Origin: Burkholderiales bacterium
GTDB taxonomy: Bacteria; Pseudomonadota; Gammaproteobacteria; Burkholderiales; JAEUMW01
DNA: 18,420 nucleotides
Reading direction: 5' to 3'
Assembly: GCA_016791285.1 (NCBI GenBank)
Contig: JAEUMX010000051.1
Location: 1 to 18,420, forward strand
The notes under the pieces were generated by a model. The model worked only from the letters and a program-made list of their open reading frames with translations. It was not told the origin of the DNA and ran no database searches. Both the position numbers and the translations under genes were made by a program. Below, piece after piece: positions 255 to 18,340 of this stretch; position 1 is the stretch's first letter, and each line of letters starts with the position of its first letter.

Positions 255-575
255 TCAGCCGAGTACGACCGCGGTCCCGCTCGCCGATACCATCAGCATC
301 CCGTTCTCGGCGCCGAGCACCTCGTAGTCTAGATCGACGCCCACCACGGCCGTGGCCCCGAGCTTGCCGGCCGCTTCGATCATCTCGTCGAGAGCGGTGC
401 GGCGGGCATCGGAGAGCGTGTGCTCGTAGGCGCCGGCACGCCCGCCGACGATGTCGCGAACGCGGGCGAAAAGGTCGCGGAAGACGTTCGCACCGACGAT
501 CGCCTCGCCGGTGACGATGCCGAGGTAGCGCGTGATGCGGTGGCCTTCGATGCTGGGGGTGGTGGTGACGATCAT
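255..575 (-). CDS. YbjQ/UPF0145 family protein
   Basis: 106 residues, the usual length for the UPF0145/YbjQ family (PF01906, annotated as a putative heavy-metal-binding domain). Family traits are visible: an N-terminal [11 protein letters not shown] strand, [18 protein letters not shown], a central helix with [25 protein letters not shown], and a C-terminal [10 protein letters not shown] strand. Members form small oligomers; their physiological role is unknown, and metal binding is a family-level prediction rather than something seen here. The ATG at 575-573 overlaps the TGA of the upstream hydrolase (ATGA) and has a good AAGGAG site, so the two are translationally coupled. It is a common accessory protein and says little about the neighbourhood. 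Confidence 0.9.
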
Positions 576-1402
576 GGCGTCTCCTTGGTTACCGAACCCG
601 TGGCGACGTCGGCGAGAAATTTCGCCAGTGCGTCGCGATAGGTGTCGGGGCTCACGAGAAAGGCGTCGTTATGGCCGCCGCGCAGCTCCACCAGCCGCTT
701 GGGCGATCGTGCGGCGGCGAGCAGACGTTCGGGGTGCGACATGTCGAAGAGCTCGTCCTCGCGGCTGTGCAGGATGAGGAGCGGCGCGTTGATGCGGGAC
801 ACCTCGTCGAGCGTGTCGAACCTGTGCTTCAGCACCCACTGTACCGGGAGAAACGGTAACCGCTCCTGCGCGATGTCCGGCACCGACGTAAAGCCGCTCT
901 CGACGATCACCCCGCCCGTCTGTACCTCGCCGGCGAGATGCACCGCCACGGCCGAGCCGAGCGACTCGCCGTACACGACGATGCGCTCCTGGGCCGCCCC
1001 GCGGGTCGTGACGAGCCACTGGTAGGCTGCGCGCGCATCGCGGTACATGCCCTGTTCGCTGGGTTTCCCGCTGCTCCTGCCGTAGCCGCGGTAATCGATG
1101 ATGAAGGTGTCGGCGCCGAGCTCGTGCAATACCGCGAGCTTCTCCAGCCGGTGCGAGACGTTGCCACCGTTGCCGTGAAAGAAGAGCACGACCGGTGCAC
1201 CGGGGCGCCCGGACGGCACCCACCAGCCGTGCAGGGTCTCCCCATCCTCGGTCGCGAGCGCCACGTCTTCGAAAGGCAGTCCGGCAGCCGCGGGGGTACG
1301 TACGATGTCGCGTGTCGGATAGTACATGGACTGTTGCTCATACCAGCGCAGGCCCAGGAACAGGGCCAGAAGCAGCGCGGCGAAGGAGAGGGCGGCAGTC
1401 AC
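572..1402 (-). CDS. Membrane-anchored alpha/beta hydrolase (YfhR/ABHD13/BEM46-like)
   Basis: 276 residues. An N-terminal hydrophobic helix (about residues 4-18) probably anchors the protein in the membrane with the catalytic domain outside the cytoplasm. The alpha/beta-hydrolase core is complete: oxyanion-hole motif HGNGG at 76-80, nucleophile elbow GESLG with Ser147, probable acid Asp216 in HSREDELFD, and His244 in [13 protein letters not shown] (103-110) is typical of the YfhR/ABHD13/BEM46 group. Substrate unknown; an esterase, lipase or thioesterase acting at the membrane is reasonable. The start is GTG (1402-1400) without a strong Shine-Dalgarno; it lies 30 bp after the lyase-like gene and overlaps the next gene by ATGA, so it is probably co-transcribed with both. 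An Asp/Ser/His triad is intact, so it should be active. Confidence 0.85.
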
Positions 1403-1432
1403 GGCGGGCGGATTCCCGGCGCCCGGGGCGGC

Positions 1433-2425
1433 TCAGATCGACCTCAAGAGTGCGATGAGAGCGCTTGCGTCGAGGGTCGGGTCGCCGGGCTCGTCCTTGA
1501 AGATGTACAGACCCTTCGTGTAGATCGTCCGCGTCGGGCTCGAGCCCCAGCCTTTGTTGACGTCCCACATGTACAGCCCGAACTTCCACGGATGGAAGCC
1601 GGCGCTTTCGCGAAACGCGTTCGGGATGTCGGTGTCGACGATCTGCGCCGCGGGCCCGTTGCCGACGGCCCGCCACACCCGCGTATAGGGACCCTTGGCC
1701 GGATCCCACTCGTACTTCCATTGGATGACGATGTAGTTCCAGACGCCTTTCTTGACCGGGAAATCGAACGTGCTGCCTTGCGCAGTGGCATTCGTGCCGT
1801 CGAGGACGCCACTCGACTGCACCCACAAGCGCAGATTGCCGTCCTTGCGTAGGTCGAGCTTGTTCATGGACTGGGTGATCTTGCTAGTTACGGAGTGTCC
1901 AAGCGACAGGATCGAGATGTGGTCGCCGCTGCCGTCGAAGGGATGGTCGCTGCCGACGTAGATCGCAAAGGCTGCCCAGTACGGAACGCCGTCCCGCAGC
2001 ACGGCGGGCGACGTCGCGCCCCACCTGGACATGATCGACGCGCGCGCCGACTGATAATTCCTATCCTGCCGATAGGACATGCCGGCGGCGATCTTGTGGC
2101 GGAACGCTTTGCCGCTGGTGCGTTCGGGATCTGCGGTGCGGACGACCGTGAACTCGGACGTGTTCGGGTCGCGATAGCCGGGGTCCGGGAAAGTGGTGAG
2201 GTCGCGCTCGATGTTCTTGCCCTCGGCGTCCTGCCCCACCTGCAGCGAGATGCGGCTCTTCGGATAGCCTTCGAAGGGGCGGCCGGGGTCGATCCAGGCG
2301 ACCACCCGTGGATCGTTCGGGCCAGGCAGTCCGCCGGCGGTGCCGGGGGCCGGGCTCGCTGCTTGGCTCTGGATGCTGGTTGCGGCCCACACCAGGAACA
2401 GGGGCCAAAAAAAAGGTCGCGTCAT
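1433..2425 (-). CDS. Secreted heparinase-I-fold protein (polysaccharide-lyase-like)
   Basis: 330 residues from ATG 2425-2423, chosen because GAGGAGAAG lies just upstream and because this start gives a clean signal peptide (MTRPFFWPLFLVWAATSIQS, cleavage near residues 22-23). A longer in-frame start at 2512 would bury the signal peptide and overlap the glycosyltransferase. The mature part resembles PF14099-type concanavalin-A-like polysaccharide lyases (heparin lyase I/PL20 group): YWAAFAIYVGSDHPFDG at about 149-165, GVWNYIVIQWKYEWDP at 227-242, FGLYMWDVNKGW at 282-293 and RTIYTKGLYIFKDE near the C-terminus. No catalytic residue is assigned. It would act in the periplasm or outside, and its position 46 bp after a glycosyltransferase suggests that it trims or binds the glycan made by this locus. 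A sugar-binding protein without lyase activity is the main alternative. Confidence 0.6.
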   Translation of the reverse strand: MTRPFFWPLFLVWAATSIQSQAASPAPGTAGGLPGPNDPRVVAWIDPGRPFEGYPKSRISLQVGQDAEGKNIERDLTTFPDPGYRDPNTSEFTVVRTADPERTSGKAFRHKIAAGMSYRQDRNYQSARASIMSRWGATSPAVLRDGVPYWAAFAIYVGSDHPFDGSGDHISILSLGHSVTSKITQSMNKLDLRKDGNLRLWVQSSGVLDGTNATAQGSTFDFPVKKGVWNYIVIQWKYEWDPAKGPYTRVWRAVGNGPAAQIVDTDIPNAFRESAGFHPWKFGLYMWDVNKGWGSSPTRTIYTKGLYIFKDEPGDPTLDASALIALLRSI

Positions 2426-2471
2426 ATGCGCTTCTCCTCGATCGCGATGACGAATTCCAATGATCCTGCTT

Positions 2472-3575
2472 TTAACGCGTCGATCCGCCTGCGAGCGATG
2501 ATACATCGGCACCGCGCAACCCCATGCCGAGGTACAGGGCCTCCACTTGCGGCACCACTGCGTTGGCGGAAAACGCCACGTCGACCTTGTGCCGCGCCGC
2601 TTCTCCCATCCTTCGCGCGAGCGCCGGATCGCCGAGCAGCCGCTCCAGGCGATCCGCCAGGGCGGCCACGTTGCCGGGCTCGACCAGGAAACCCTCGACG
2701 CCGTCGGTCACCGCCTCGGGAATGCCACCGACCGGGGTGGTCAGGATCGGCAGCCCCGCCGCCATGGCCTCGAGTACGCTGACCGGAAGCCCCTCGTTGT
2801 ACGAAGGCAGCACGTATATCGCCGCCGTCGCGAGCAGCCGCTCCTTGTCCTCACCCCGTACCCAACCCAGCAGGTCGATCTTGTCGGCGATACCGAGCTC
2901 CGTGGCCCGCGCGCGCACCGTCTCCAGCTCACCGTCGCCGCCGAGCAGCAGTCGCAGGGCCGGCCGGCCGGGGGCGATCCGCGCGGCCGCGTCCAGCAGA
3001 TCGTAGGTGCCCTTGCGATGGCCGAGACGGCCCAGGAACAACGCGGTCCCCGGCGTGCGCCGTTCCCACGGAGGGAGCTTCGGCGGCAAGAGGACGGGGT
3101 TGTAGATCGCGAGCACGTTCGGGTTCTCACACATCCGTTGCGCCCACGCCTTCCATGCTGCCGAGAGCACGATCACTCGGGCGCAGTGGTCGAAGACGAA
3201 GCTTACGAAGCGCCTGCGCAGCGCTCCGCACTCCTGGTCGTAGAAGAGCGCGAACTCCGCGCCGTGCAGGTGCAGGACGGCCGGAACCCGGAGCAGGAAG
3301 GCCAGCAGAAAGAAGGGCGACTTTCTCCAGAAGCTCGCGCGGGAGGCAACATGCACGTGAACGAGCGCGGGGCCGCGCAGCAAGGCTGTCGCGTAGGTGG
3401 CGATCGCGGCCAACGCGCGCCAGAGCTTCCTGGCCGCAGAGCCGTCGCAATGCGTCGCGATGTACTGGATGCCGAAACGTTCGAAGAGGCCGTATTGCTC
3501 GTACACGCGAACCACGGACGAGATCCCGCCCCGCGTGTCGAGTGCGGTGCCGAGCATCAGAATGCGAGGGCTCAT
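2472..3575 (-). CDS. GT4-family glycosyltransferase
   Basis: 367 residues. A GT-B fold enzyme: N-terminal acceptor domain opening with RILMLGTALDTRGGISSVV, where the GG motif (16-17) normally contacts the donor phosphate. The C-terminal donor domain contains GRLGHRKG (182-189), LLLGGDGELE (209-218) and the EX7E signature E261...E269 (EGLPVSVLE), then TTPVGGIPEAV. These are standard retaining GT4 features; donor and acceptor sugars cannot be read from sequence. No membrane span, so it is cytoplasmic or peripheral. The ATG at 3575 was chosen because it overlaps the TGA of the upstream CapK-like ligase (ATGA); ATG at 3584 is an alternative. Tight coupling to an adenylate-forming ligase suggests that an acyl group and a sugar are joined in one product. 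Confidence 0.9.
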   Translation of the reverse strand: MSPRILMLGTALDTRGGISSVVRVYEQYGLFERFGIQYIATHCDGSAARKLWRALAAIATYATALLRGPALVHVHVASRASFWRKSPFFLLAFLLRVPAVLHLHGAEFALFYDQECGALRRRFVSFVFDHCARVIVLSAAWKAWAQRMCENPNVLAIYNPVLLPPKLPPWERRTPGTALFLGRLGHRKGTYDLLDAAARIAPGRPALRLLLGGDGELETVRARATELGIADKIDLLGWVRGEDKERLLATAAIYVLPSYNEGLPVSVLEAMAAGLPILTTPVGGIPEAVTDGVEGFLVEPGNVAALADRLERLLGDPALARRMGEAARHKVDVAFSANAVVPQVEALYLGMGLRGADVSSLAGGSTR

Positions 3576-4936
3576 AGCTCGCATACGACGCCGCGGAACT
3601 TGCCGTTGCCGGTGCGCGGGATGTTGCCGACAGGGCGCACGGCGATCGCCACGCTGCTGCCGATCCGCTCGCGCGCGTTGTCGAGGAGCATCCCTTCGAC
3701 CGCAGGGCCGTAACCAGCGCCCGGTACCACGAGAATGTCGATGCGATCGAGTGCTTCCTGCCTGATCTGCGCCTCGATCACGCCGTTCACCCCCTTGAAG
3801 ATGTGATCCAGGCGGCCGATGTGGCGACCATCTGGCAGCTTGACGACATCGTCGGCGCGGCCGTGGATCGCGCGCACCAGGGGAAAGCTCCGGCCGCAGC
3901 GGCATGACGCACCGGGTTCGGCGAGCTCGACGAAATCGCCGGTGCGGTAGCGGATGAGGGGCATGGCGAGGTTGTTGAAGCCGGTGCCGACGATCTCGTG
4001 CGTGCCATCGCCCGCCGGGAGAAACTCGTGCAACGAGTAATCCGACATGATGTGGTAGCTGCCGTGCTCGCACGTTCCGATCGCTGCCACGCGCTCGAAC
4101 TGACCGTACCAGTCGAAAACCCTGCACCCGAACCGGCGCTCGATCACCGCTCGCTGCGCGTCCGACAGCGACTCGGAGGAGCTGACGATGCCCCGGAGCG
4201 ACGCGCCCTCGTAAGAGCGTCCCGCCGTCTCGAGCCAGTTCGCCAGAAAAGCGATCGACGAAGGGTAGGTTTGAATGACGAGCGGGTCGAATCGGGACAG
4301 CGCTTCGAGGTAGGCCAGCGCGCTGCGCTGCGACAGGTGATACGAGGACAGCATGAGCATGTTCTCGGCGCGACTCAAGCGCCAGTATGGCGGCTCGGCT
4401 TGCGCCACCGGCGCCACCATGTCGCCGCGCAGCCATGCGCGCCTGCCCTTCGGGGCCAAACCCGCCCAGGTGAGTTGCCGCTGAATGAACGCGTTTTCGC
4501 GATTGATCGCTTGCAGATCCTGGAACACCCTGAGAGGAGAGCCCGTCGTACCGCTGGTCGCCCCCTCGAAGATCGGCCGGCGCGCCGCGGCCGACAGAAC
4601 GCCGCGCCCCGCCGCGCGTACCTGGCTCTTGTCGAGCAGCGGCAGCTGCGCGAGGTCGGATTCGCTCGTGATGTCGTCCGGCTCCAGGCCGGCTTCGCGG
4701 AAGCGCTCGCGGTAGAAGGCACAATGGGCGTAGGCGTGCTGCAGGATACGGGACAGCATGGCCATGCGGTAGTGCGCCATGGCCTCCGGGCCGTACCACT
4801 GCGATGCTTCGACCTCGGCGCGCATGCGGTCGAAGGTTCGCCCCTCGCGCAGCCGGGCGCGCGACCACGCGCGGAGCGAGATCAACGCCTCCTGCGCCCA
4901 GATCGGACTGCGCCGATAGAGAGACGAAGCAAACAT
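3572..4936 (-). CDS. PaaK/CapK-type adenylate-forming ligase A
   Basis: 454 residues, matching the phenylacetate-CoA ligase/CapK (coenzyme F390 synthetase-like) branch of the ANL superfamily. Visible motifs in order: ATP-binding P-loop SGTTGSP at 128-134, YGQFER at 277-282 (the A5-type position), YRTGD at 330-334, a possible zinc site made of CEHG (289-292) and CRCGR (345-349), GRADD at 359-363, and C-terminal PRTGNGK with the probable catalytic lysine K446. The A10-type lysine suggests real acyl-adenylate chemistry. Such enzymes activate a carboxylate with ATP and transfer it to CoA or another acceptor; in surface-polysaccharide loci they are often present without a known substrate. It follows ligase B after 142 bp and overlaps the glycosyltransferase by ATGA. 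No strong Shine-Dalgarno is seen before ATG 4936. Substrate unknown. Confidence 0.85.
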   Translation of the reverse strand: MFASSLYRRSPIWAQEALISLRAWSRARLREGRTFDRMRAEVEASQWYGPEAMAHYRMAMLSRILQHAYAHCAFYRERFREAGLEPDDITSESDLAQLPLLDKSQVRAAGRGVLSAAARRPIFEGATSGTTGSPLRVFQDLQAINRENAFIQRQLTWAGLAPKGRRAWLRGDMVAPVAQAEPPYWRLSRAENMLMLSSYHLSQRSALAYLEALSRFDPLVIQTYPSSIAFLANWLETAGRSYEGASLRGIVSSSESLSDAQRAVIERRFGCRVFDWYGQFERVAAIGTCEHGSYHIMSDYSLHEFLPAGDGTHEIVGTGFNNLAMPLIRYRTGDFVELAEPGASCRCGRSFPLVRAIHGRADDVVKLPDGRHIGRLDHIFKGVNGVIEAQIRQEALDRIDILVVPGAGYGPAVEGMLLDNARERIGSSVAIAVRPVGNIPRTGNGKFRGVVCEL

Positions 4937-5078
4937 CGGTGATCAGAAACGAGGGTTTGGCAAGTGGCAGCAATCCGAACCGCACGCCGCGCTTGGCGCT
5001 CGCGCGCGAGGTACCGGCGGGTCAGGGCGTCAGTTTAGCAGGCGCCGGCAGGAAACCCTCGCGCCCGCGACCGAATGC

Positions 5079-6404
5079 TCAGGTGAAGCGGCGGATGACG
5101 AACGGCGTCTTGCCGGACGGCAGCCTTTCCATTTCGTCGACGACTTCGACGGTGAGCAGCATGTCCGCCGGCACCCACTCATACGCATTCCGCACCAACT
5201 GTGGTTCATCGATGCGGCCGACGCGCGGATCGACCACGACCCGAATCGTCGCGCGGTCCGTCGCCTCCTGCAATACCTGCATGCGCACCAGACCCTTGAT
5301 GCCGGCTGCGGCGTGCGTGAGGCCGACGATGACTTCACCGCGCGGCGAGATCAGGTGTTCCTTGTCGCGCCCCGTTATCGAAACCACCGGTTTGAGCCCC
5401 AGGGAGACGTCGTCCAGATCCTGCGCGGTGTAGGACTCCGGAACGATCGCCCGGTCGCCGGAGCGGTAGCGCGCGAGCGGCATCGCTTCGTTCCAGTACC
5501 CCGTGGCCACGATCTCGAACGCGCGGTGTCCCGCGGGCGCTTCACCGTCGGCGATCGGAAAGAGCTCGACGCGACCATAGGCCGGATTGAAGAAATAGGC
5601 TCCGGCAGCGACGCCGGCCGCGAACACGACGCGCTCGGCCATCCCGTAGTAGTCGATGACCGTCGCGTTGAACACGCTTTCCATGAGCAGCCTGCCCGCC
5701 GGGTGCAGCATCTCGGATGATGTCAGCACGACCGGGATCTCGAGCGAAAGTCCGCGCTGTTGCAGCAGCCGGGCAAGCGCCTCGCCGGAGCTCGGATGCG
5801 TGAAGAGGATGTCCGGGCGCAGACCGCGCAAGGCCTCGTAGTACCAGTCGACGGTGAGCGCGCTCAGGTGATTGGACGACAGCAGCAGCAGCCGTCCGCC
5901 GTCGCGGTATTGTCCGAAGGGTGGCTTGCGGTCGCTTTGCGGCTTGACGTTGTCGGCGCGCAGGCGCGCCATGCGTGCGCCCCTGAACGTGTAGTTCCAA
6001 ACCCCCAGCAGATCGTCGATGAACGCCTGCTCGGCGGCGACGTTGGCAAACGATCGCACCAGCCTGACCGGTATTCCGGTCGTGCCGCTGGTCGCGGCCG
6101 GGATGCGGATGAACGCCGGTGTGAAGAAGCGCTCGGGATGCGCGCGCACGTCGTCTTTTTCGATGACCGGCCGCTCCGCCAAAGGGATCTCCGCCGGCAG
6201 ACCGCCCGGCAGCCGGGCTGCCCATTGCAGGGTGCGGGCCGTGAGGCGCTCGGCGAGCGCCTGCCGAGCGCTGCGGTCCATCGTATCGAGCTCGCGCAGC
6301 AGTTGGCGTACCGGCTCATAGTACTGGCGCCGGTAGCGCAGCTGGTCGTCGATGACCACGGAGCGCTTGAAGGCATCGGTGAGGCGGTCGATCAGTCTTG
6401 GCAT
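5079..6404 (-). CDS. PaaK/CapK-type adenylate-forming ligase B
   Basis: 441 residues, the same superfamily as ligase A but clearly diverged. Motifs: SGTTGIP at 106-112, TSSEML at 228-233, YYGMAER at 252-258, YRSGD at 313-317, TGRDKEHLISPRGE at 344-357, and LPSGKTPFVIRR with probable catalytic K432. The protein has no cysteine at all, so the CxCG zinc-type site of ligase A is absent. The FFNPAYG stretch at 271-277 replaces the usual Cys/His segment. Retention of the P-loop and the C-terminal lysine argues for an active enzyme with its own carboxylate. It starts 45 bp downstream of the DUF1989 gene, consistent with one transcript. The C-terminal half of the adenylation domain and small lid are complete; no carrier-protein domain is attached. 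Substrate and acceptor unknown. Confidence 0.82.
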   Translation of the reverse strand: MPRLIDRLTDAFKRSVVIDDQLRYRRQYYEPVRQLLRELDTMDRSARQALAERLTARTLQWAARLPGGLPAEIPLAERPVIEKDDVRAHPERFFTPAFIRIPAATSGTTGIPVRLVRSFANVAAEQAFIDDLLGVWNYTFRGARMARLRADNVKPQSDRKPPFGQYRDGGRLLLLSSNHLSALTVDWYYEALRGLRPDILFTHPSSGEALARLLQQRGLSLEIPVVLTSSEMLHPAGRLLMESVFNATVIDYYGMAERVVFAAGVAAGAYFFNPAYGRVELFPIADGEAPAGHRAFEIVATGYWNEAMPLARYRSGDRAIVPESYTAQDLDDVSLGLKPVVSITGRDKEHLISPRGEVIVGLTHAAAGIKGLVRMQVLQEATDRATIRVVVDPRVGRIDEPQLVRNAYEWVPADMLLTVEVVDEMERLPSGKTPFVIRRFT

Positions 6405-6449
6405 GCGTGGTTCCGGGACAGCGGTGGCAGCCAGCGATGATCGGCGGCT

Positions 6450-7049
6450 TCAGCCGATGATCGCGAAGTCGATCGGCTTGAAGCAGCCATTGTTGGAGCC
6501 TTCCGCCGAGCATGCGGTGAGGCCGCAGACCATGTCCATCTCCGCTCTGAGATCGAGGTGATCACCGGCGCGAGAGGTGGGTATGCCCACGTCGAGCTTT
6601 CCCTGCGGATCGATGGTGACGTTCATGAAGATGTTGAACGTGGTCGCGATCTGCTCCGGTCTGATGCCAAAGCGGGCCAGACTGGTATGGAGGTTCTCGA
6701 AGCAGCTCGGGTGGTGGCCGCGGTGCCGGTACAGGATCTCGAACATTTCCTGGCTGCAGGGCGTCAGCAGGAAGTCGTGGCGTCCGACCGTATCGTCGAG
6801 GATCGTGAACATCGGTCGGCTGTCGTTCGCGTAGAGCACGTCGCCCGACGTGAGGTAGATCCTGCCGGCGTAGTCGAGCGAGCGTCCCGACGAGAGCCAG
6901 CACGCGTGGTCCTGGTCGGCGAACGCGAAAAGATCGGCTACCTGTTCGCCCTGCGGATCGACAACCCGCAGCACCTGTCCTCGCCGTAGCCGAAACGCTG
7001 TACCTGACTGCGGCGGGATGCGGTTGAACGTCGGCGCTGAAGTCGTCAT
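6450..7049 (-). CDS. DUF1989 / urea carboxylase-associated family protein
   Basis: 199 residues. Fits PF09347 (DUF1989, urea-carboxylase-associated). Landmarks: GEQVADLFAFA (34-44), SGDVLYANDSRPMFTILDDTVGRHD (68-92, with the Asp and His positions typical of the family), C98, HHPSCFENL (112-120), FNIFMNV (138-144), GDHLDLRAEMDMV (162-174) and a C-terminal TACSAEGSNNG (178-188). Relatives include the two subunits of carboxyguanidine deiminase (CgdAB) in guanidine/urea-carboxylase pathways, so a metal-dependent activity on a small guanidine, urea or carbamate compound is plausible but not proven. Here there is no urea carboxylase or allophanate hydrolase nearby. Start ATG 7049-7047 overlaps the TGA of the YqcI/YcgG gene (ATGA), tying the two proteins together. 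A longer upstream reading of this frame only shadows the neighbour. Confidence 0.88.
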   Translation of the reverse strand: MTTSAPTFNRIPPQSGTAFRLRRGQVLRVVDPQGEQVADLFAFADQDHACWLSSGRSLDYAGRIYLTSGDVLYANDSRPMFTILDDTVGRHDFLLTPCSQEMFEILYRHRGHHPSCFENLHTSLARFGIRPEQIATTFNIFMNVTIDPQGKLDVGIPTSRAGDHLDLRAEMDMVCGLTACSAEGSNNGCFKPIDFAIIG

Positions 7050-7882
7050 CGGTCCTCGGTCTTCGTCTTGTGGAAGGGGCACACCCATGCGTCGGGTACG
7101 GCGCGCCCCGAGTATTGCCGGGCCTCCGAGCTCTCGCCGAAGTCCTTCAGCACCGGATTGATCGAGCCCTGGTACGCCATGTCGCGCGCGCGGATGATGC
7201 GCTTCATCGTTTCGAACTTGCCGCGGGCACGGAGGTGGTCGAACTGCTCGTGGAGATTGAACACCAGACTCGGATGCCCGACCGTGCGCGCCAGGCGCGA
7301 GGCGACAGGATGCAGACCCACGACGAAGAATCCGCGTCCGCCGATGCTGAACGAGAACTCCGGATGAGCCGGATCCGAGCTCACGCGCGCATCCCAGGAG
7401 AAGTGCATGCCGTCGAGTTCGTGCATGCACTGCAGCTGCCGCCAGAGCAGTTCCTCGAAGTGCAGCTCGGACTCGATGGCTGGGCTGCGGAACATGGCAA
7501 TGAAGCTCACGAACCGATCCCCGATGTCCCGAAACTCGTGGCTGAATTCGTAGAGATCGTAGCAGACCCCGGACACGGCGGCGGAGGTGGCGAGCTCTGG
7601 GTAGAGGCCGAAGCGATAGGTTCTGCGATTGAACGCCGACTTGGCACCCACGCACGGAAACCCCTCGCCCATCACCCGCGCCCGCAAGTTCTCGTGCGCC
7701 GCAGCCAGGTCGGCCTCGGCAGTCCGCCCCGGGGACAACGGGTGAACAACCGCGCTGTCGACGAAGGTCGCGTAGCCGGATGCCTCACGTGCCAGGGGAT
7801 CGTTCGCCAGCGGATTCCAGGGCCGCGAGGGGGTGCTGGCGGCCGCTGCCGCTGTCAGTTTGTCTAAGACCACGATTTCCAT
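7046..7882 (-). CDS. YqcI/YcgG family protein (GntA-like haem N-hydroxylase candidate)
   Basis: 278 residues, matching the YqcI/YcgG family (PF08892). Diagnostic segments: GFPCVGAKSAFNRRTYRFG (74-92), the central helix WRQLQCMHELDGMH (147-160), SSDPAHPEFSFSIGG (168-182), FFVVGLHPVASRLAR (185-199), SLVFNLHEQFDHLR (205-218) and a C-terminal VCPFHKT (267-273). The family includes GntA, the haem-dependent N-hydroxylase of guanitoxin biosynthesis; most members are uncharacterised. Conserved His191 and the other His residues are possible haem ligands, but I cannot assign one. By analogy the protein may hydroxylate a guanidine or amine nitrogen of an amino acid. It is the first gene of the minus-strand cluster and is ATGA-coupled to the DUF1989 gene. 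No Shine-Dalgarno precedes ATG 7882; a TAGAAT box only 9 bases upstream suggests a near-leaderless mRNA. Confidence 0.85.
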   Translation of the reverse strand: MEIVVLDKLTAAAAASTPSRPWNPLANDPLAREASGYATFVDSAVVHPLSPGRTAEADLAAAHENLRARVMGEGFPCVGAKSAFNRRTYRFGLYPELATSAAVSGVCYDLYEFSHEFRDIGDRFVSFIAMFRSPAIESELHFEELLWRQLQCMHELDGMHFSWDARVSSDPAHPEFSFSIGGRGFFVVGLHPVASRLARTVGHPSLVFNLHEQFDHLRARGKFETMKRIIRARDMAYQGSINPVLKDFGESSEARQYSGRAVPDAWVCPFHKTKTEDR

Positions 7883-7891
7883 GGGGGTTGC

Positions 7892-7897
7892 ATTCTA
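7892..7897 (-). promoter_or_regulatory. Candidate -10 box for the YqcI/YcgG-ligase-GT cluster
   Basis: TAGAAT on the minus strand matches five of six consensus bases and ends 9 bases before ATG 7882. A transcript from it would be leaderless or nearly so, which agrees with the absence of a Shine-Dalgarno. No good -35 is seen 16-18 bp further upstream. Confidence 0.25.
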
Positions 7898-8150
7898 CTC
7901 AGTGACGCGGGGAGCGGGCAGGGTTTCGACGCATGGCGGAGCCGCCGGGAGTCCGGCTCGCCTGGCGTTTCCGGCCGCGCCTTCGGGGCCATGCCTCACC
8001 CCGGCCGTGCGGATTGCCGGCAGCATTCTGGCGATATCCTTACTACAATGGAAATCTAACGATTCGGGAGATTTTGCCACGCAGTCTGGGCACGGCGGCG
8101 GACATCCGATGGCCGCCGACCGTGCGTTCACGTAGTGCAGTGCAGCAAGA

Positions 8151-8935: not shown

Positions 8936-10237
8936 CTACCGGTCGACCAGTTTCGACGGCACCATGAGCACCAGGATCGCACCGAGCACCAGTATCACCG
9001 TCAGGATGTACAAACCCATGTTCGTGCTCTGGGTCAGACTCTTCACCCAGCCGATCAGGAAGGGGCTGGCGAAACCGGCGAGGTTGCCGACGGAATTGAC
9101 CGCGGCGATACCGGCGGCGGCCGACGTGCCGGCGAGAAAGGCGGTCGGCAGCGACCAGAACAGCGGTGCGCAGGTGATGATCCCCCCGGCGGCGAAGCAC
9201 AACGCGATGATCGCGAGCGTCGTGTTCTGAGCCGCCAGGGCACTCGCCGTCAGGCCGGCGGCGCCGATGAGGCAGGGGATGATCAGGTGCCAGCGGCGTT
9301 CCCTCCTGCGATCGGCGCTCGCCCCGACGAGCAGCATCGCTGCCACGGCGACGAGATAGGGGATGGCAGTGAGCAGCCCGATGTTGAACACGCCCTGCAC
9401 GCCGGCGTCCTTGATCAAGGTCGGCAACCAGAACGTGATGCCATATTGCCCCATGACGAATGCGAAATAGATCGCCGACATGTGCCACACGCGCTTGTCG
9501 GCGAACATTGCCCACAGCGAGGGATGCTGGACCTTCTCCTTCTCCTCTTCGGCGATGTGATGCTCGAGGATCGATTTCTGCTCGGCAGTTAGCCACTTGG
9601 CCTTGTGAATGCCATCATCGAGGTAGAACAAAAGGAAAATCCCGACCAGCACCGCCGGCACGGCCTCGATCACGAACATCCACTGCCAGCCGTTCCAGCC
9701 GTGCACGCCGCTGAAGTGCTCCATGATCCAGCCGGATAGCGGGCCCCCGAAGATGCCGGAGACCGGAATGGCGGTCATGAAGAGCGCGATCTTGCGTGCG
9801 CGGCGGTAAGACGGATACCAGAATGTGAGGTACAGGATGATCCCCGGGTAGAACCCTGCTTCCGCCGCCCCCAACAGGAAGCGCAGGGCGTAGAACCAGA
9901 ATTCCGTGGTCACGAACGCGAACATGCCGGAGATGAGTCCCCACGTGATCATGATGCGCGCGATCCAGATTTTCGCTCCCACCTTCTGCATGATCAGGTT
10001 GCTCGGCACCTCGAAGAAGAAATACCCAATGAAAAACAAACCGGCGCCGAGGCCATACACCGCCTCGCTGAATTTCAGGTCACTTAGCATCTGCAGCTTG
10101 GCGAAGCCGACATTGACGCGGTCGAGGTACGCAATGACGTAACAGAGCATGAGGATCGGCATGATCCGGAAGCTCACCTTGCGGTATGCGGCTTCCTCGA
10201 TATCCGATGTTCCGTGTTGCGTGACCGCGGGTGCCAT
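8936..10237 (-). CDS. MFS permease, anion:cation symporter type (probable threonate/erythronate importer)
   Basis: 433 residues with about 12 hydrophobic segments. The ACS-family signature AYLDRVNVGFAK lies in the first helix region (about 36-47), followed by GYFFFEVPSNLIM (about 71-83) and EAGFYPGIILYLTFWYP (about 125-141), with a charged central loop (HHIAEEEKEKVQHPS, about 228-242). This family, which includes phthalate, tartrate and hexuronate permeases, imports organic anions with protons. It is the last gene of the tetronate operon, 39 bp after denD, so L-threonate and/or D-erythronate are the likely substrates; this is inferred from context. ATG 10237 has a GGAGAAG site. A 12-bp palindrome TTCTCCGGAGAA (10245-10256) covers that site and could affect translation. 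Confidence 0.9.
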   Translation of the reverse strand: MAPAVTQHGTSDIEEAAYRKVSFRIMPILMLCYVIAYLDRVNVGFAKLQMLSDLKFSEAVYGLGAGLFFIGYFFFEVPSNLIMQKVGAKIWIARIMITWGLISGMFAFVTTEFWFYALRFLLGAAEAGFYPGIILYLTFWYPSYRRARKIALFMTAIPVSGIFGGPLSGWIMEHFSGVHGWNGWQWMFVIEAVPAVLVGIFLLFYLDDGIHKAKWLTAEQKSILEHHIAEEEKEKVQHPSLWAMFADKRVWHMSAIYFAFVMGQYGITFWLPTLIKDAGVQGVFNIGLLTAIPYLVAVAAMLLVGASADRRRERRWHLIIPCLIGAAGLTASALAAQNTTLAIIALCFAAGGIITCAPLFWSLPTAFLAGTSAAAGIAAVNSVGNLAGFASPFLIGWVKSLTQSTNMGLYILTVILVLGAILVLMVPSKLVDR

Positions 10238-10276
10238 GTTTTTCTTCTCCGGAGAATGCCTGCGCTGGCTGGCTCG

Positions 10277-11257
10277 TTACGCGATGGTGAGGCCTTCGTC
10301 TTCAATGAAGGCGCGGACGATGTCGGTAAAGTCCGTGTCGGCGACGAACCCCAGGCTCTTCGCGTGATCGGCGCTGAAATTCCCCGGCCAGCTGTTCACG
10401 ATCTGCTCGACCTTGGGGTCCCGCTGCATGCGGATGCGGCCGGTAACGCCGGTGCCGGCCACCCGCTCGAGCGCGGCGATCATGTCGGAGACCCGGATCG
10501 ACAAGCCCGGCAGGTTGATGACGCGGCGCTTGCCGATCCGCTCCGGCGGCAGGTCGTGCGCGTGCAGGAGGTTCATCACTACCTTGCGGGGGGACATCAG
10601 CCACAGGGTCGTGTCCGGCGCGACCGGACAGATCGCTTCCTCTCCGTGCAGGGGCTCGCGGATGATGCCGCTCGCGAAGCTGGAGGCGGCGAGGTTCGGC
10701 TTGCCCGGACGCACGACGATGGTGGGCAGGCGCACGCTGCGCCCGTCGACGAAGCCCTTGCGCGCGTAATCGCTGACCAGCAGGTCCGCCATCGCCTTCT
10801 GCGTGCCGTAGGAACTCTGCGGGGCCCAGACCTGGTGGTCGGGCACGATGGCGGGCAATTCACCGCCGAACACCGCGACCGAGCTGGTCATGACCAGGCG
10901 CGGCCCGCTGCCGAGATGACGCAGGCGTTCCAGCAACAGGCGCGTGGCGTCGAAGTTCACGCGCATGCCGAGATCGAAGTCGGCTTCGGCTTGTCCCGAA
11001 ACGACGGCTGCAAGGTGAAAGATGGACGTCACGTCGCCATCGATCACGTCGTGCAGCAGGCCGGCATCGCTAATGTCCCCGGCCACGCTGCGGATGCGGG
11101 GATCGGAGAAGCCTTCCGCCTCTACCATGTCCACCAGCACGATCTGATCGAAGGGCTCGGCACCGCGCGAGCCCTCCAGGGTGCCGCGGTCGAGCAGCGC
11201 TGCTGCAACGCGTTTGCCGAGAAAACCGGCGCCGCCGGTGATGACGACTTTCTTCAT
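10277..11257 (-). CDS. denD: D-erythronate 2-dehydrogenase
   Basis: 326 residues from ATG 11257, which has a GGAGA site 8 bases upstream; an in-frame start at 11341 would run into otnI. An extended SDR/NAD-dependent epimerase-like enzyme: GGAGFLG (8-14) binds NAD, D43 follows the second strand, and the active site is Ser125/Ser126, Tyr150 and Lys154 (YGTQK). DenD oxidises D-erythronate to 2-dehydro-D-erythronate with NAD+, feeding the same isomerase as LtnD. Assignment rests on fold plus the otnI/otnC/otnK/ltnD neighbours, a combination known from Cupriavidus/Ralstonia-type operons. It lies 20 bp after otnI and 39 bp before the permease gene. A sugar-nucleotide epimerase role is unlikely in this context. 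Confidence 0.9.
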   Translation of the reverse strand: MKKVVITGGAGFLGKRVAAALLDRGTLEGSRGAEPFDQIVLVDMVEAEGFSDPRIRSVAGDISDAGLLHDVIDGDVTSIFHLAAVVSGQAEADFDLGMRVNFDATRLLLERLRHLGSGPRLVMTSSVAVFGGELPAIVPDHQVWAPQSSYGTQKAMADLLVSDYARKGFVDGRSVRLPTIVVRPGKPNLAASSFASGIIREPLHGEEAICPVAPDTTLWLMSPRKVVMNLLHAHDLPPERIGKRRVINLPGLSIRVSDMIAALERVAGTGVTGRIRMQRDPKVEQIVNSWPGNFSADHAKSLGFVADTDFTDIVRAFIEDEGLTIA

Positions 11258-11277
11258 GTCTGTTTCTCCGTATCGAG

Positions 11278-12054
11278 CTAGACGAGCGTCTTCAGCCAAC
11301 CCAGGCCCTCCGCGCTGCCTGCGCGCGGGCGATACTCGCACCCGATCCAGCCGCCGTAGCCGAGCGCGTCGACCAGCCGGAACAGGTACCGATAGTTCAC
11401 CTCGCCGTCGTCGGGCTCGTTGCGTTCCGGTACGCTCGCGACCTGGATATGCCCGACGTGATCGAAGTGCTTGCGAAACCTCATCGCGATGTCGCCTTCG
11501 ACGATCTGCACGTGATAGAAGTCCATCTGCACCTTGAGATTGGGCGCTCCCACCTCCTCGCGCACCGCGTGCGCATCGGCCTGTGTATTGAGGAAATAGC
11601 CCGGAATATCGCGTGTGTTGATCGGCTCGATGAGCAGCATCCGATCGTGCTTGGCGAGTTCGCGCGCGGCATAGCGAAGATTCTCGACATAGGTGCGCCG
11701 GTGCGCGGCGCGATCGGCTTCATCCTTCAGCAATCCGCACATTGCGTGCAGCCGTGGCGTGCCGAGCGCCTGCGCGTACTCGAGCGCGCGCGCAACGCTC
11801 GCCCGAAACTCCTCTTCACGTCCGGGGAGCGAGGCGATCCCGCGCTCGCCGGCGGCCCAGTCGCCGGGTGGCATGTTGAAGAGCACGCTTTCCAGGCCGT
11901 TCTCGGTCAGCCACCCGGCCACTTCGCCGGGCGTGTGTTCGTAGGGAAACAGGAACTCGACGGCCTTGAAGCCCGCTGCTGCCGCGGCGGCGAAGCGCTG
12001 CGGAAAGGGAACTTCGTTGAACATCATGGTGAGGTTGGCGGCGAATTTCGGCAT
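11278..12054 (-). CDS. otnI: 2-oxo-tetronate isomerase
   Basis: 258 residues, the same length as E. coli Hyi-type isomerases. TIM-barrel (AP endonuclease 2-like, PF01261) protein beginning [17 protein letters not shown]. The metal/active-site set of the Hyi family appears at E143 ([16 protein letters not shown]), D178 (QMDFYH), Q204 (HIQVASVP) and E240 (GCEYRP). OtnI converts 2-oxo-tetronate to 3-oxo-tetronate, removing the C3 stereocentre so that threonate and erythronate routes merge. Start ATG 12054 has an AGAGAG-type site and lies 14 bp after otnC; an in-frame upstream extension to 12597 only shadows otnC. Hydroxypyruvate isomerase is the family alternative, but the operon argues for OtnI. 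Confidence 0.92.
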
Positions 12055-12068
12055 GGCGTTTCTCTCTT

Positions 12069-12731
12069 TCAGAAATCGAGATGGAAGACCGACTTGAGCT
12101 CGTCGATCTGGGCTTCGTCCAACGGGCGGACCGGCGCGCCGCGCAGGAGCAGAAACAGCTTGGCGGTCTCCTCCAGTTCCTCGGTGGCGTAGACCGCGGC
12201 TTCGAGCGTCGACCCGGAGACCACCGGTCCGTGGTTGGCCAGCAGCACCGCGCTGTTCTTGCCGGCGAGACCGCGGATGGCGTCGCCGAGGGCCGCGTCG
12301 CCGGGTCGGTAGTACGGTATGAGCGGCAGGCGGCCGATCTTCATTACGTAATAGGCGGTGAGCGGCGGCATGCAGTCGGCGTGGTCGAGCCCGTCCATGC
12401 AGGACACCGCGGTGGAGTGCGTCGAGTGCAGGTGAACGATGGCACCCGCGCCGGCGCGCTCTTCGTACATGGCGCGGTGCAGGAAAGCCTCCTTCGACGG
12501 TGGATCGCCGCTCATCGAACGGCCGTTCCAGTCGAGCTTGGCGAGGCGAGCGGGATCGAGCGCGCCGAGGCAGGCGTTGGTCGGGGTGAGCAGCCACCCG
12601 TCGTCGAGACGCACGCTGATATTCCCGCTGCTGCCTGCGGTGAGCCCCCGTTCGAAGATGGAGCGGCCAAACGCGACGATCTGCTCCCGCAGGCGCATCT
12701 CGTCCGCGGCCCGACCGGCCATCGCCGTCAT
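12069..12731 (-). CDS. otnC: 3-oxo-tetronate 4-phosphate decarboxylase (class II aldolase family)
   Basis: 220 residues, class II aldolase/adducin fold (PF00596). Visible: [11 protein letters not shown] (31-41) that binds phosphate in the family, GDPPSKE with E81 at the catalytic Glu position, HLHSTH with metal ligands H100 and H102, and LLANHGPV with H167. OtnC decarboxylates 3-oxo-tetronate 4-phosphate to dihydroxyacetone phosphate and CO2, the last step before glycolysis. Its ATG (12731) overlaps the TGA of otnK (ATGA), so kinase and decarboxylase are translationally coupled, sensible for passing on a labile beta-keto acid phosphate. L-fuculose-phosphate aldolase is the sequence-level alternative; the coupled kinase makes OtnC far more likely. 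Confidence 0.92.
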
Positions 12732-14005
12732 GACAGCCGCGCCCAGGCCTTCAGAAAGAAGTCACCGGTGCCGAAGTTGCCCGACTTGAGCGCAAGCGCC
12801 AGCGGAGCCCCGTCGCGGTCCGCTTGCAGCGCTGCCGTCCAGGGAACGCCGGGATCGATCTCGGGCCCGATCAGCAGGCCGTGCACGCCGAGCGCCTTGA
12901 CCACCGCACCGGACGTTTCCCCGCCGGCCACTATCATTTGTCCGACACCGAGCTTCACCAGGCCGCGAGCGATGCCGGCGAGCGCATCCTCGACCATGCT
13001 GCCCGCGCGCTCGACGCCGATCTGCGCCTGGATTTCCTTGACCGTTTCGGGCGCGGCGGTGGCGTATATCAGGACCGGCTCGCGCGGCAGGTGTGGCACC
13101 GCCCAATCGAGGGCCTCGGTGACGAGGTCGGCTCCCTGCGCGAGACGCAACGGGTCGACGTTGAAGGCGGGATGAACCGCCCGCATCGCGGCGACCTGGC
13201 CTTGCGTCGCGATCGAGCAACTGCCGGATATCACTGCGCGCAGACCACCAGTAGCCGGCAGCGCATCGGCCGCGGTCTCGCGATGGAGCAGGCCGCGGCG
13301 GCGGAAATTCGCGGGCAGACCCAACGCGATGCCCGACCCGGCGGTGACGAGCGGCAGGTCGGCGCAAGCGGCGCCGATCGCTTCCAGGTCCGCGTCGGAC
13401 AGGGCGTCGACGACGGCAAAGCCGCAGCCCTCGCGTTGCAATTGGGCGAAACGATCGCCAACTGCTGCCGAGCCGCGCGCCACGGTCGCGGCATCGACCA
13501 GGCCGACCTTGCGGTGCACCTGCTGCTGCAGCACCCGCACCAGGTTGGCGTCGGTCATCGGCGTCAGCGGATGGTTACGCATGCCCGAATCGGACAGCAG
13601 CACGTCGCCGACGAACAGATGACCCTTGTAGATGGTGCGGGCGTTGGCAGGAAACGCCGGGCAGGCAATGGTGAAGTCGGTGCCCAGGGCTTCCATCAGC
13701 GCCTCGGCGACCGGCCCGATGTTCCCTTTGGGCGTGGAATCGAAAGTGGAACAGTATTTGAAGTAGAACTGACGGCAGCCCGCTGCCTGCAGCCAGCGCA
13801 ACGCGGCGACCGATTCGGCGATGGCCTCCGTGACCGGATTGGTACGGGACTTGAGCGCGATGACGACCGCATCCACATCGTGCGGCACCGGGTTCGCGGG
13901 CACCCCGATCATCTGCACCGTACGCATGCCGGCCTTCACGAGCATGCCGGCGAGATCGGTGCCCCCCGTGAAGTCGTCGGCGATACACCCCAGCAATACA
14001 CCCAT
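12728..14005 (-). CDS. otnK: 3-oxo-tetronate 4-kinase (four-carbon acid sugar kinase)
   Basis: 425 residues, the usual length for the DUF1537 kinase family (PF07005 N-terminal sugar-binding domain, PF17042 C-terminal nucleotide-binding domain). The N-terminal [10 protein letters not shown] (8-17) is the family substrate-binding signature. The C-terminal domain has [10 protein letters not shown] (about residue 360) and [14 protein letters not shown] near residues 404-417, the nucleotide-binding elements. It phosphorylates 3-oxo-tetronate at O4 with ATP. Start ATG 14005 is preceded by a GAGGAGGG site and lies 12 bp after ltnD; it overlaps otnC by ATGA. The related D-threonate kinase DtnK works with PdxA2, which is absent here, so OtnK is preferred. 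Confidence 0.92.
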
Positions 14006-14017
14006 GCCTCGCCCTCC

Positions 14018-14920
14018 TCAAGTCGGCTTGTTGCCCGGCAACCGGATGCCGGGAAAAACTTTCACCACCGCCGAATCGTCCTCGCCACCGTGGCCGGCCG
14101 CCGAGGCATGCATGAACATCTGGTGCGCCGCGGCGGAGAGGGGGAGGGGAAATACCGACTTCTTCGCGTAATCGAGGACGATGCCGAGGTCCTTGACGAA
14201 GATGTTCACGGCCGACAAGGGCGTGTAGTCACCCGCGAGGATGTGCGGCACGCGGTTCTGGAACATCCAGGAGCTTCCGGCGCTGTTGGTGATGACCTCG
14301 TACAAGGCGTCCGGATCACACCCCGCGCGCAGTCCCAGAGCCATGGCTTCGGCGGCGGCGGCGATGTGCACCCCGGCAAGGAGCTGGTTGATCATCTTCA
14401 CCTTGGAGCCCTGTCCCGGCTCGTCGCCGAGGCGATAGAGCTTGCCGCAGATCGCCTTGAACAGCTCTTCGCAGCGGGCGAACGCAGACGGGTCGCCGGA
14501 TGCCATGACCGACATCTCCCCCTGCGCGGCCTTGGCGGCGCCGCCCGACACGGGGGCGTCGATCAGCAGCAACCCGGCTGCCTGCAGGCGCGCGCCCAGC
14601 GCTTCGGCGAACTCGGGCGAGACCGTTGCGCTGGCGATGACGATGGATCCTGGCTGCATGCGGGCGACCGCGCCCTGCTCACCGAACAGCACGGCCTCGG
14701 TCTGCTGCGCGTTCACCACGAGGACGACCAGAGCCTCCACGGCAGCGCCGAGCGCCGCCGGCGAGGCGGCCGGCCGCGCGCCCGCATCCACCATCTTCTG
14801 CACGGCTTCGGCCCGCACATCGCACACATGAACCTCGAAACCGGCTCGGACCAGCGATTGGGCGACACCCATGCCCATGGCGCCGAGGCCGATCACGCCA
14901 ACACGGCGAATTTGCGTCAT
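14018..14920 (-). CDS. ltnD: L-threonate 2-dehydrogenase
   Basis: 300 residues, 3-hydroxyisobutyrate dehydrogenase superfamily. N-terminal Rossmann fold with GLGAMGMGVA (11-20), family motif DAPVSGG (121-127) that binds substrate, and the catalytic lysine K175 in KVKMINQ (173-179), with a C-terminal helical domain (KDLGIVLDYAK). LtnD oxidises L-threonate to 2-oxo-tetronate with NAD+. It is the first gene of the operon. ATG 14920 was chosen over an in-frame GTG at 14938 because GGAGGAG (14930-14936) stands 9 bases before it. Other beta-hydroxyacid dehydrogenases (tartronate semialdehyde reductase, GlxR-type) share the fold; the otnK/otnC/otnI/denD context decides the name. Confidence 0.92.
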   Translation of the reverse strand: MTQIRRVGVIGLGAMGMGVAQSLVRAGFEVHVCDVRAEAVQKMVDAGARPAASPAALGAAVEALVVLVVNAQQTEAVLFGEQGAVARMQPGSIVIASATVSPEFAEALGARLQAAGLLLIDAPVSGGAAKAAQGEMSVMASGDPSAFARCEELFKAICGKLYRLGDEPGQGSKVKMINQLLAGVHIAAAAEAMALGLRAGCDPDALYEVITNSAGSSWMFQNRVPHILAGDYTPLSAVNIFVKDLGIVLDYAKKSVFPLPLSAAAHQMFMHASAAGHGGEDDSAVVKVFPGIRLPGNKPT

Positions 14921-15090
14921 ATGGTTCCACTCCTCCACGGGGTACGGCGCGGCCGGAAATCAGGCGCGCCGCGGGTTAGACGGGGGCGCGACCGCGCCGG
15001 CCGAACGCAAGTCCGGAACGCGTGCGCGAAGGCGGTAGGATCACGGGTGAGGCGGTCGCCTCGGAGAGTCGGGCTGGAACGATCGAGCAC

Positions 15091-16804: not shown

Positions 16805-16814
16805 GCCGGGTAGA

Positions 16815-17126
16815 TCAGCCGGCGCGCGTCTTCATGTCCGCCGCAAAGTCTTCGTAGCGACGCAGCGGCGTCACGTCGACCTGCACGTGCTGACCGTGCG
16901 CCTGCATGATCGGCAGATCCATCAGAATCTGGTCGAGCGTGTCGGGACCGTCCACATCCACGATCGCCACCACGCGACGGCTGCCGACGCACTTCCAGAG
17001 ATCCACGACCGCACCGGCCTTCTTCGCCTCCAGGGCCGCCTCGGCCTCGCCCACCCACATCGCGAAGAGCTCCTTCTGCGACATGGTGCTCGGGTATTCG
17101 ACGCTGAACAGCAGGTGATAGAGCAT
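16815..17126 (-). CDS. Muconolactone delta-isomerase-like small protein
   Basis: 103 residues, slightly longer than typical muconolactone isomerases (about 90-97). The N-terminal MLYHLLFSVEYP strand, a helix ELFAMWVGEAEAALEAKKAG (about 19-38), DLWKCVGSRRVVAIVDVDG (about 42-60), LDQILMDLPI and a final VDVTPLRRYEDF resemble PF02426, a ferredoxin-like dimeric fold. True MLI acts in the catechol branch of the beta-ketoadipate pathway, but no catechol genes are present, so an isomerase or binding role on another compound is more likely. ATG 17126 has a very strong GGAGGAGG site, and the gene is tightly followed (10 bp) by the acyl-CoA synthetase. It starts 70 bp after the dehydrogenase gene. Confidence 0.75.
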   Translation of the reverse strand: MLYHLLFSVEYPSTMSQKELFAMWVGEAEAALEAKKAGAVVDLWKCVGSRRVVAIVDVDGPDTLDQILMDLPIMQAHGQHVQVDVTPLRRYEDFAADMKTRAG

Positions 17127-17172
17127 GATGGTCCTCCTCCTGGTTTGGGTAACGGAAACGGCAGCGCAGATT

Positions 17173-17197
17173 ATCGCCCAGCGCTGCAGCGGGCGAT
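17173..17197. terminator. Hairpin at the 3' end of the TtuC-like gene (attenuator or weak terminator)
   Basis: ATCGCCC (17173-17179) and GGGCGAT (17191-17197) form a perfect 7-bp stem around an 11-base loop that itself includes the palindrome GCTGCAGC. The stem reaches the stop codon (17199-17197). No U-run follows on the minus strand (AATCTGCG), so it may reduce read-through or protect the 3' end rather than terminate fully. Confidence 0.35.
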
Positions 17198-18252: not shown

Positions 18253-18328
18253 CGTCGTGTCCTCTTGGTCGCACGCGCCCCGATGGTAACCGATTGCAGC
18301 GTCGGAAAGCGCGCCGGGGCCGCGATGC

Positions 18329-18334
18329 GATAAT
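18329..18334 (+). promoter_or_regulatory. Candidate -10 box for dusA
   Basis: GATAAT ends 6 bases before ATG 18341. If used, the transcript would start at or next to the ATG, making it leaderless; no Shine-Dalgarno is seen. No matching -35 at normal distance (TTGCAG at 18294-18299 is 29 bp away). Confidence 0.25.
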
Positions 18335-18340
18335 GCCGCC

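Follow-up and report, generated by a model that had tools for sequence, protein, structure and literature searches.

A conserved YqcI-DUF1989 gene pair, predicted to N-oxygenate and cleave a guanidine, next to a separate glycan gene set in a Burkholderiales contig

Introduction

Adjacent genes on one strand may form one pathway or several, and this is the question raised by the window analyzed here, the whole 18,420-nucleotide stretch of contig JAEUMX010000051.1 from a Burkholderiales bacterium. Positions 2472 to 7882 hold five consecutive minus-strand genes encoding a YqcI/YcgG-family protein, a DUF1989 protein, two CapK-type ligases (CapK1 and CapK2) and a GT4 glycosyltransferase. The original prediction described their order correctly, as well as the overlaps at 7046/7049 and 3572/3575 (4 bp each), and read the five genes as a single pathway ending on a glycan. 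The best explanation of the interval as a whole, which we hold with middling confidence, is that it consists of two modules, YqcI-DUF1989(-CapK1) and CapK2-GT4-polysaccharide lyase.

Results

The gene content was compared with that of a syntenic Burkholderiales contig, L095, which matches the window at 265-4936 (75%) and 15318-18420 (83%). It carries CapK2, GT4, lyase, hydrolase and YbjQ genes as well as the distal catabolic genes, and is devoid of YqcI, DUF1989 and CapK1. The blastn homology stops at position 4936, and a 59-bp match is found at 8042-8099, which places the outer limits of the missing interval, the YqcI-DUF1989-CapK1 cassette, at 4937-8041 (no strand assigned). The L095 genome gave no YqcI match at 1e-10 and no DUF1989 match at 1e-20. 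As all three genes are absent from L095, they come or go as a block, and the one-pathway reading fails since the CapK2-GT4-lyase set stands there by itself. Joint conservation of the five genes was not seen in homologous neighborhoods.

CapK2 (3572-4936, minus strand), a PaaK/CapK-type ligase, and the GT4 glycosyltransferase (2472-3575, minus strand; PF00534/PF13692) both have 78% orthologues in L095. The third member of this glycan gene set is a PF14099 polysaccharide-lyase-like protein (1433-2425, minus strand; 39.8 bits) with a 73% homologue in L095, its start being taken as the ATG within the longer ORF 1433-2512. Among the loci compared, the lyase query matched only L088 and L095 (one place). 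Over 76 YqcI loci, some of which end early at contig ends, GT4 had no tblastn match at 1e-5, and the CapK2 matches at this threshold were confined to L001 and L020, where both are the CapK1 gene.

The other part of the interval has a different distribution. DUF1989 lies directly downstream of YqcI in 63 of the 76 loci, three of these 63 being one fused ORF, and just upstream in another three, while eight loci have YqcI without DUF1989. The two genes usually overlap and are sometimes fused; they are a strongly conserved, widespread and portable two-gene unit, which bears out the idea that they belong together. Many close relatives occur in Nitrospira and Nitrosomonas, Janthinobacterium fluminis has the pair too, and the pair is isolated in most neighborhood maps inspected. 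Stress- or repair-type neighbors (hemerythrin-like, catalase, DNA ligase; partly named by eye) were seen at some pairs.

An EcfG motif (GGAAC-N15-18-CGTT, searched close upstream) precedes 5/15 alphaproteobacterial copies compared with 3/292 control genes, relatedness being uncorrected, and is found ahead of 0/12 actinobacterial and 0/34 other copies. Judging from this motif, some alphaproteobacteria may regulate the pair through the EcfG stress response.

The YqcI/YcgG-family protein (7046-7882, minus strand) scores 192 bits against PF08892 (cut-off 27), and AglA was matched by the A3 profile at about 4e-26. AglA (PDB 9ub3) is also the top fold match, and the structure model, although mediocre (pLDDT 62), is consistent with the AglA sandwich fold. 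Residue mapping showed that AglA residues C44, R166, K196, R200, F152, F182 and Q228 are all retained, from which C77 is predicted to be the heme ligand and R199, K227 and R231 to bind the heme propionates. Over the 76 loci, and in AglA numbering, the Cys is conserved in 73, R166 in 76, K/R196 in 68 and R200 in 58. The membership of a GntA-like N-hydroxylase family that had been proposed thus agrees with the presence of residues expected of a heme-thiolate guanidine N-oxygenase, and N-oxygenation by this protein is plausible. Glu replaces AglA Lys225 in the window protein and is found at this position in 74/76 loci; three relatives that lack DUF1989 (L099, L100 and L102) carry it too, which means that this Glu is no hallmark of the pair. 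Position 179 is His in 76/76 loci and position 177 is Asn in 75/76, and the substrate may differ from that of AglA because these two residues replace Arg and Gln.

The DUF1989 protein (6450-7049, minus strand; PF09347) was aligned to 3oru and to TMAO demethylase 9q59. It retains the three cysteines that bind zinc in this family, in line with its earlier assignment, and is a predicted Cys3-zinc enzyme cleaving a C-N bond. C98, C116 and C180 are conserved in 58/58 DUF1989 sequences and aligned with Cys of 9q59. H113 lies within HxxC in a column outside the >93% conserved set; the Tdm residue H276 is a proposed iron ligand. Identity as CgdAB or a urea amidolyase associated protein (UAAP) was rejected by scores below the TIGR03424 (119.8 vs 284.7 bits) and TIGR03425 (93.3 vs 205.95 bits) cut-offs. 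Identity as a TMAO demethylase was likewise rejected, as this 199-aa protein consists of DUF1989 only and has no GcvT domain by Pfam.

CapK1 (5079-6404, minus strand) is a PaaK-type adenylate-forming ligase and the third gene of the cassette. Of the two ligases that had been tied to the pair, CapK1 follows it in two other genomes (orthologues in 2/76 loci, L001 and L020), whereas CapK2 belongs to the separate unit. In L020 the trio is flanked by genes that, judged by eye, resemble map and rpsB. Five of 32 CapK1 contigs, including L001 and L020, equal a YqcI contig in size (shift-null mean 0.15); the same comparison gave 0/40 for CapK2. CapK1 is rare, being found among 399 genomes, and among 85, only in the query-bearing genome, and we regard it as a lineage-specific extension of the pair. 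It has the ANL fold with its conserved core residues, has no Pfam match and does not reach the PF00501 AMP-binding gathering score, and CapK2 also falls below this cut-off (21.2 vs 29.9 bits). The homologues carry the label PF27533.

Discussion

YqcI, predicted to be an AglA-type heme-thiolate enzyme, would hydroxylate a free guanidino amino acid on a nitrogen of its guanidine group. The foremost candidate is arginine: the AglA K225E variant hydroxylates free arginine at Ndelta, according to PMC12866846, and Glu at the corresponding position suggests that the substrate may be arginine, with Glu253 pointing to Ndelta. DUF1989 would then cleave a C-N bond of the N-hydroxyguanidine to give a hydroxylamino- or hydroxyurea-type product, and CapK1, where present, might activate the carboxylate of this product or of a partner as an adenylate. 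The two-module account with guanidine N-hydroxylation followed by zinc-dependent C-N cleavage has, in our judgment, about an even chance of being right. More tentatively, YqcI and DUF1989 could be a widespread guanidine N-oxygenation/cleavage system, found across many bacterial phyla, in at least one archaeon and on plasmids, in places as a single fused protein and in some groups under stress regulation, making an N-hydroxy or hydroxyurea-type metabolite from arginine or another guanidine for a general cellular purpose; many proteins annotated as guanitoxin GntA would then belong to it.

A single pathway, in which an N-oxygenated building block is made and attached to a glycan, would account for the adjacency, common strand and short gaps of the five genes and for the homology of CapK1 and CapK2 (32-34% cross-matches). 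Glycosyltransferases of kinds other than the window GT4 also lie downstream of the trio in L001, near the pair in L080 and close to further copies in L024, L028, L033 and L070, and a GT2-like family occurs in 11/76 YqcI loci; as such genes recur near some copies, a looser glycan link of the pair may exist. Yet the set in L095 without the other three genes, the trio of L020 without glycan genes and the lack of GT4 matches over the 76 loci make one pathway improbable, and product guesses should not lean on CapK2 or GT4. A true guanitoxin-pathway GntA is scarcely credible. The window YqcI does pass the NF041366 GntA equivalog (271 bits, cut-off 145), but guanitoxin models matched none of the other eight of nine window proteins scanned with NCBIfam (farther genes were scanned with Pfam only), 14 of 21 plasmid copies, whose hosts are unrelated bacteria, are annotated with this name as well, and the usual partner is DUF1989, which presumably is not among the guanitoxin genes. 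The pathway name is not supported by gene context.

The pair might instead degrade guanidine for nitrogen or detoxification, with oxygenation by YqcI, deamination by DUF1989 and no lasting product. DUF1989 relatives include carboxyguanidine deiminase (PMC11271267) and TMAO demethylase, and both the relatives in Nitrospira and Nitrosomonas and the solitary position of most pairs would fit. We consider degradation rather unlikely, as inspection of the maps by eye revealed neither a urea carboxylase nor an allophanate hydrolase nor a guanidine transporter, no Rfam riboswitch was found in the window or in seven loci, and the adenylating ligase of the trio suits synthesis better. That YqcI acts on a non-guanidine N-H or C-H substrate, the pair being a stress-response oxidation system, is unlikely. 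The changed substrate residues N209 and H211 would allow it, and the EcfG motif enrichment and the stress-type neighbors point in the same direction, but the aromatic clamp, Q256 and the heme residues match a guanidine hydroxylase, and the family members named in PMC12866846 act on guanidines.

The preferred reading, guanidine N-hydroxylation followed by C-N cleavage, joins two families with separate backgrounds: YqcI/YcgG enzymes have been described in a few specialized pathways, whereas DUF1989 proteins act in the breakdown of guanidine and TMAO. Their conserved pairing, usually with an overlap and sometimes as a fusion, points to a common step of metabolism, of which searches of the main text of open-licence papers found no description. 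Proteins automatically named after a cyanobacterial toxin gain a concrete two-enzyme assay, and the natural fusions, such as that of Nitrospira (L006), make the partnership testable.

Relation to known systems

AglA, of argolaphos biosynthesis, shares the heme Cys, both aromatic residues of the clamp, Q228 and three residues that bind the heme propionates with the window YqcI, which differs in Lys225->Glu, Arg179->His, Gln177->Asn and the missing loop residues S221/T222; AglA sits in a phosphonopeptide pathway, while the partner here is DUF1989. TMAO demethylase and the window DUF1989 protein have the three zinc cysteines in common, and an Asp is aligned as well, but only the former combines DUF1989 with GcvT. 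The CgdAB carboxyguanidine deiminase and urea amidolyase associated proteins are of the same DUF1989 fold family; unlike in their setting, no urea carboxylase was recognized in the window. The CapK2-GT4 part resembles units of exopolysaccharide loci, the two genes adjoining in L095, L097 and the Vps-type locus L094, but the window unit comprises ligase, GT4 and lyase only, and neither an export gene nor a polymerase gene was seen. In D-cycloserine biosynthesis, an arginase-like C-N cleaving enzyme, DcsB, follows DcsA. The parallel is one of idea, a heme arginine oxygenase and then a C-N cleaving enzyme, with DUF1989 in the second place in the window pair. DcsA is described as a heme arginine oxygenase in PMC10849742. 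ChmN of chalkophomycin, according to the same paper a heme-thiolate arginine N-oxygenase, shares the YqcI/YcgG family and heme-thiolate class with the window YqcI, a likeness by description rather than by sequence. In its NRPS/PKS cluster, ChmN is partnered by an SznF-like enzyme, where the window has DUF1989.

Gene organization of the window

A single-strand gene run extends on the minus strand from 7882 down to 255. It comprises YqcI/YcgG (PF08892; 7882-7046), DUF1989 (PF09347; 7049-6450), the PaaK/CapK-type ligase CapK1 (6404-5079), a second ligase of this type, CapK2 (4936-3572), a GT4 glycosyltransferase (3575-2472), a PF14099 lyase-like protein (about 2425-1433) and, at the end of the run, an alpha/beta hydrolase followed by YbjQ. 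The coordinates and both gene overlaps first predicted for the five genes from YqcI to GT4 were correct. From 8.9 kb, an MFS transporter, an epimerase, a TIM-barrel isomerase and a class II aldolase are encoded, and further in the same stretch an SBD_N/NBD_C kinase, 3-hydroxyisobutyrate-dehydrogenase-like and acyl-CoA-ligase-like proteins, and a muconolactone isomerase, followed by a protein that by eye is tartrate-dehydrogenase-like.

An HbpS/GlcG-like gene (PF03928; 7933-8819, plus strand) is broken across two reading frames and looks like a decayed gene; its homologue in the syntenic Burkholderiales contig L095 is longer and lies in one frame.

The five genes are two modules

The original prediction joined YqcI, DUF1989, both ligases and GT4 in one pathway, which is not borne out: L095 carries CapK2, GT4 and the lyase without YqcI, DUF1989 or CapK1. 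At a cut-off of 1e-100, CapK2 had matches in three of 398 genomes from the order to which Janthinobacterium fluminis belongs, at four places, two of which (L088 and L090) have GT4 adjoining; the best match was L095, in genome G035. By blastn, window positions 265-4936 pair with L095 14155-9468 (75%) and 15318-18420 with 7590-4480 (83%). CapK2, GT4, lyase, hydrolase and YbjQ occur in the same order in both, with protein identities of 78%, 78%, 73%, 79% and 92%, respectively. L095 has no orthologue of YqcI, DUF1989 or CapK1, and its whole genome yielded no YqcI at 1e-10 and no DUF1989 at 1e-20. Homology stops with the first base of CapK2 (4936), and a match of 59 bp is found at 8042-8099, which indicates that the genes of the YqcI-DUF1989-CapK1 interval are either all there or all missing. 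The whole catabolic operon (window 8936-14938) is also missing from L095, where a remnant of its kinase gene (about 210 bp) lies at 7714-7925. CapK2-GT4 adjacency recurs in a polysaccharide-type locus (L097, 45%) and, on a Pseudoalteromonas plasmid, in a locus of the Vps type (about 41%).

YqcI and DUF1989 form a conserved pair

The pair brings together two enzyme families that are already known, and their combination is conserved; it is this pair, which annotation names after guanitoxin, that deserves attention rather than the five-gene run. No description of it was found in the open-licence full text searched. Among 76 loci from a YqcI alignment scan of genome contigs, which are not independent (the closest are mainly Nitrospira) and are biased by two peptide patterns to the window's YqcI clade, 63 have DUF1989 directly downstream on the same strand. 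Classed by predicted start codons, 40 of these have an in-frame start fitting a 4-bp overlap, nine overlap otherwise, 11 are adjacent and three are one-frame fusions (Nitrospira L006, Legionella L040 and L051). DUF1989 lies just upstream in three loci (one only a partial match) and was not found in eight, and the contig ends in two more. By record titles, the hosts are nitrifiers, beta-, gamma- and alphaproteobacteria, actinomycetes, Bacteroidota, a planctomycete and a Chthoniobacterales MAG. Most mapped neighbourhoods (38 loci, by eye) have little in common except the DUF1989 partner. In an order-level search, YqcI was found at 1e-40 in four of 300 genomes, with DUF1989 beside it at four of five places.

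YqcI matches also occur in 21 plasmid records. DUF1989 or a "urea carboxylase-associated" gene stood beside YqcI in five of eight plasmids inspected, including those of Deinococcus and a haloarchaeon, and did not in three. The product name guanitoxin GntA on 14 of the 21 records (among H2-H17), from unrelated bacteria, is probably over-annotation by one profile.

Some loci have unusual arrangements. In Cesiribacter, the pair is accompanied by a second YqcI-like gene that has no FPC heme cysteine (L023, 11579-12271; L038, 11573-12181) and perhaps encodes an inactive partner. On the haloarchaeal plasmid L101 (2158-3654), DUF1989 stands between an asparagine-synthase-related gene and a distant YqcI (about 30%), and the order of the pair is reversed. 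Genes judged by eye to be nuclease-like and DNA-ligase-like follow the pair in L035, L049 and L050 (a planctomycete, an Oligoflexus MAG and a proteobacterial MAG), joined in L035 and L049 by a helicase-like gene.

CapK1 is the third gene of the cassette

Two other genomes, those of Nitrosomonas MAG_42 (L001, 70%) and J. fluminis (L020, 62%), have a CapK1 orthologue after the pair. The L020 trio is placed between map-like and rpsB-like genes, and behind that of L001 come, by eye, two glycosyltransferase-like genes and one that is epimerase-like. Of the 32 CapK1 contigs, five, L001 and L020 among them, are exactly as long as some YqcI contig (shift-null mean 0.15, maximum 2); none of 40 CapK2 contigs is. 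CapK1 is rare elsewhere, as only the query-bearing genome itself was matched at 1e-70 among 399 genomes (G001) and at 1e-60 among 85 (G002). Distant relatives (35-40%) are located in exopolysaccharide clusters, and the structure predicted for CapK1 has a PaaK/ANL fold.

Possible roles of the pair

Promoter motifs provide a lead towards a stress role. The EcfG motif, GGAAC-N16-CGTT in PMC7083833 and GGAAC-N17-20-GTT in PMC6599016, occurs within 200 bp upstream of 5/15 alphaproteobacterial YqcI genes versus 3/292 other genes of the same loci (Fisher p 7e-6, ignoring kinship; L034 and L037 are of one genus). A relaxed motif gave 7/15 versus 9/292, and in other groups the motif preceded YqcI in 0/12 and 0/34 cases. 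YqcI, YcgG and guanidine are not named in the main text of either paper. Other neighbours pull towards a glycan role: a GT2-like family lies within 8.5 kb in 11/76 loci, several-glycosyltransferase sets occur near the pair in L024, L028, L033 and L070 (Alteromonas, Phycicoccus, Erythrobacter), and L080 has a glycosyltransferase and glf close to it.

Predicted chemistry and comparison with known enzymes

The window DUF1989 aligns to 3oru and to the DUF1989 domain of TMAO demethylase. By order and spacing, C98, C116 and C180 are counterparts of the zinc cysteines named in PMC12560246, and all three are present in 58/58 DUF1989 sequences (the window and loci ORFs of 150-300 aa, excluding fused and cut ones). 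D39 is found in 57/58; the aligned Asp is Ala in entry 9q5a and is taken to be D198 of that paper. Known family activities, carboxyguanidine deamination (PMC11271267) and TMAO cleavage, break C-N bonds, and DUF1989 is for this reason placed second, where it would cleave an N-hydroxyguanidine made by YqcI. Residues and pairing are observed; we infer its metal, its reaction and the order of steps.

AglA, the YqcI/YcgG heme enzyme of argolaphos biosynthesis, was matched at about 4e-26 by a profile built from 18 diverse YqcI sequences. Its heme contacts C44, R166, K196 and R200, as given in PMC12866846, correspond to C77, R199, K227 and R231 in the window, and F152, F182 and Q228 are kept as F186, F214 and Q256. 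In AglA numbering, the 76 loci have C44 in 73, R166 in 76, R200 in 58 and K or R at 196 in 68 (Arg in 45; the window has Lys). AglA differs in having Q177, R179 and K225, which are N209, H211 and E253 in the window; Asn at 177, His at 179 and Glu at 225 occur in 75, 76 and 74 loci. Two points limit a substrate assignment: no characterised counterpart of the His/Asn pair was found in the literature covered, and Glu at 225 also occurs in relatives without DUF1989. According to PMC12866846, AglA K225E hydroxylates free arginine at Ndelta, the amino group being held by Glu, and K196R has the same effect. Given Glu at 225 or Arg at 196, this behaviour of the AglA mutants makes a free guanidino amino acid the best guess for the YqcI substrate.
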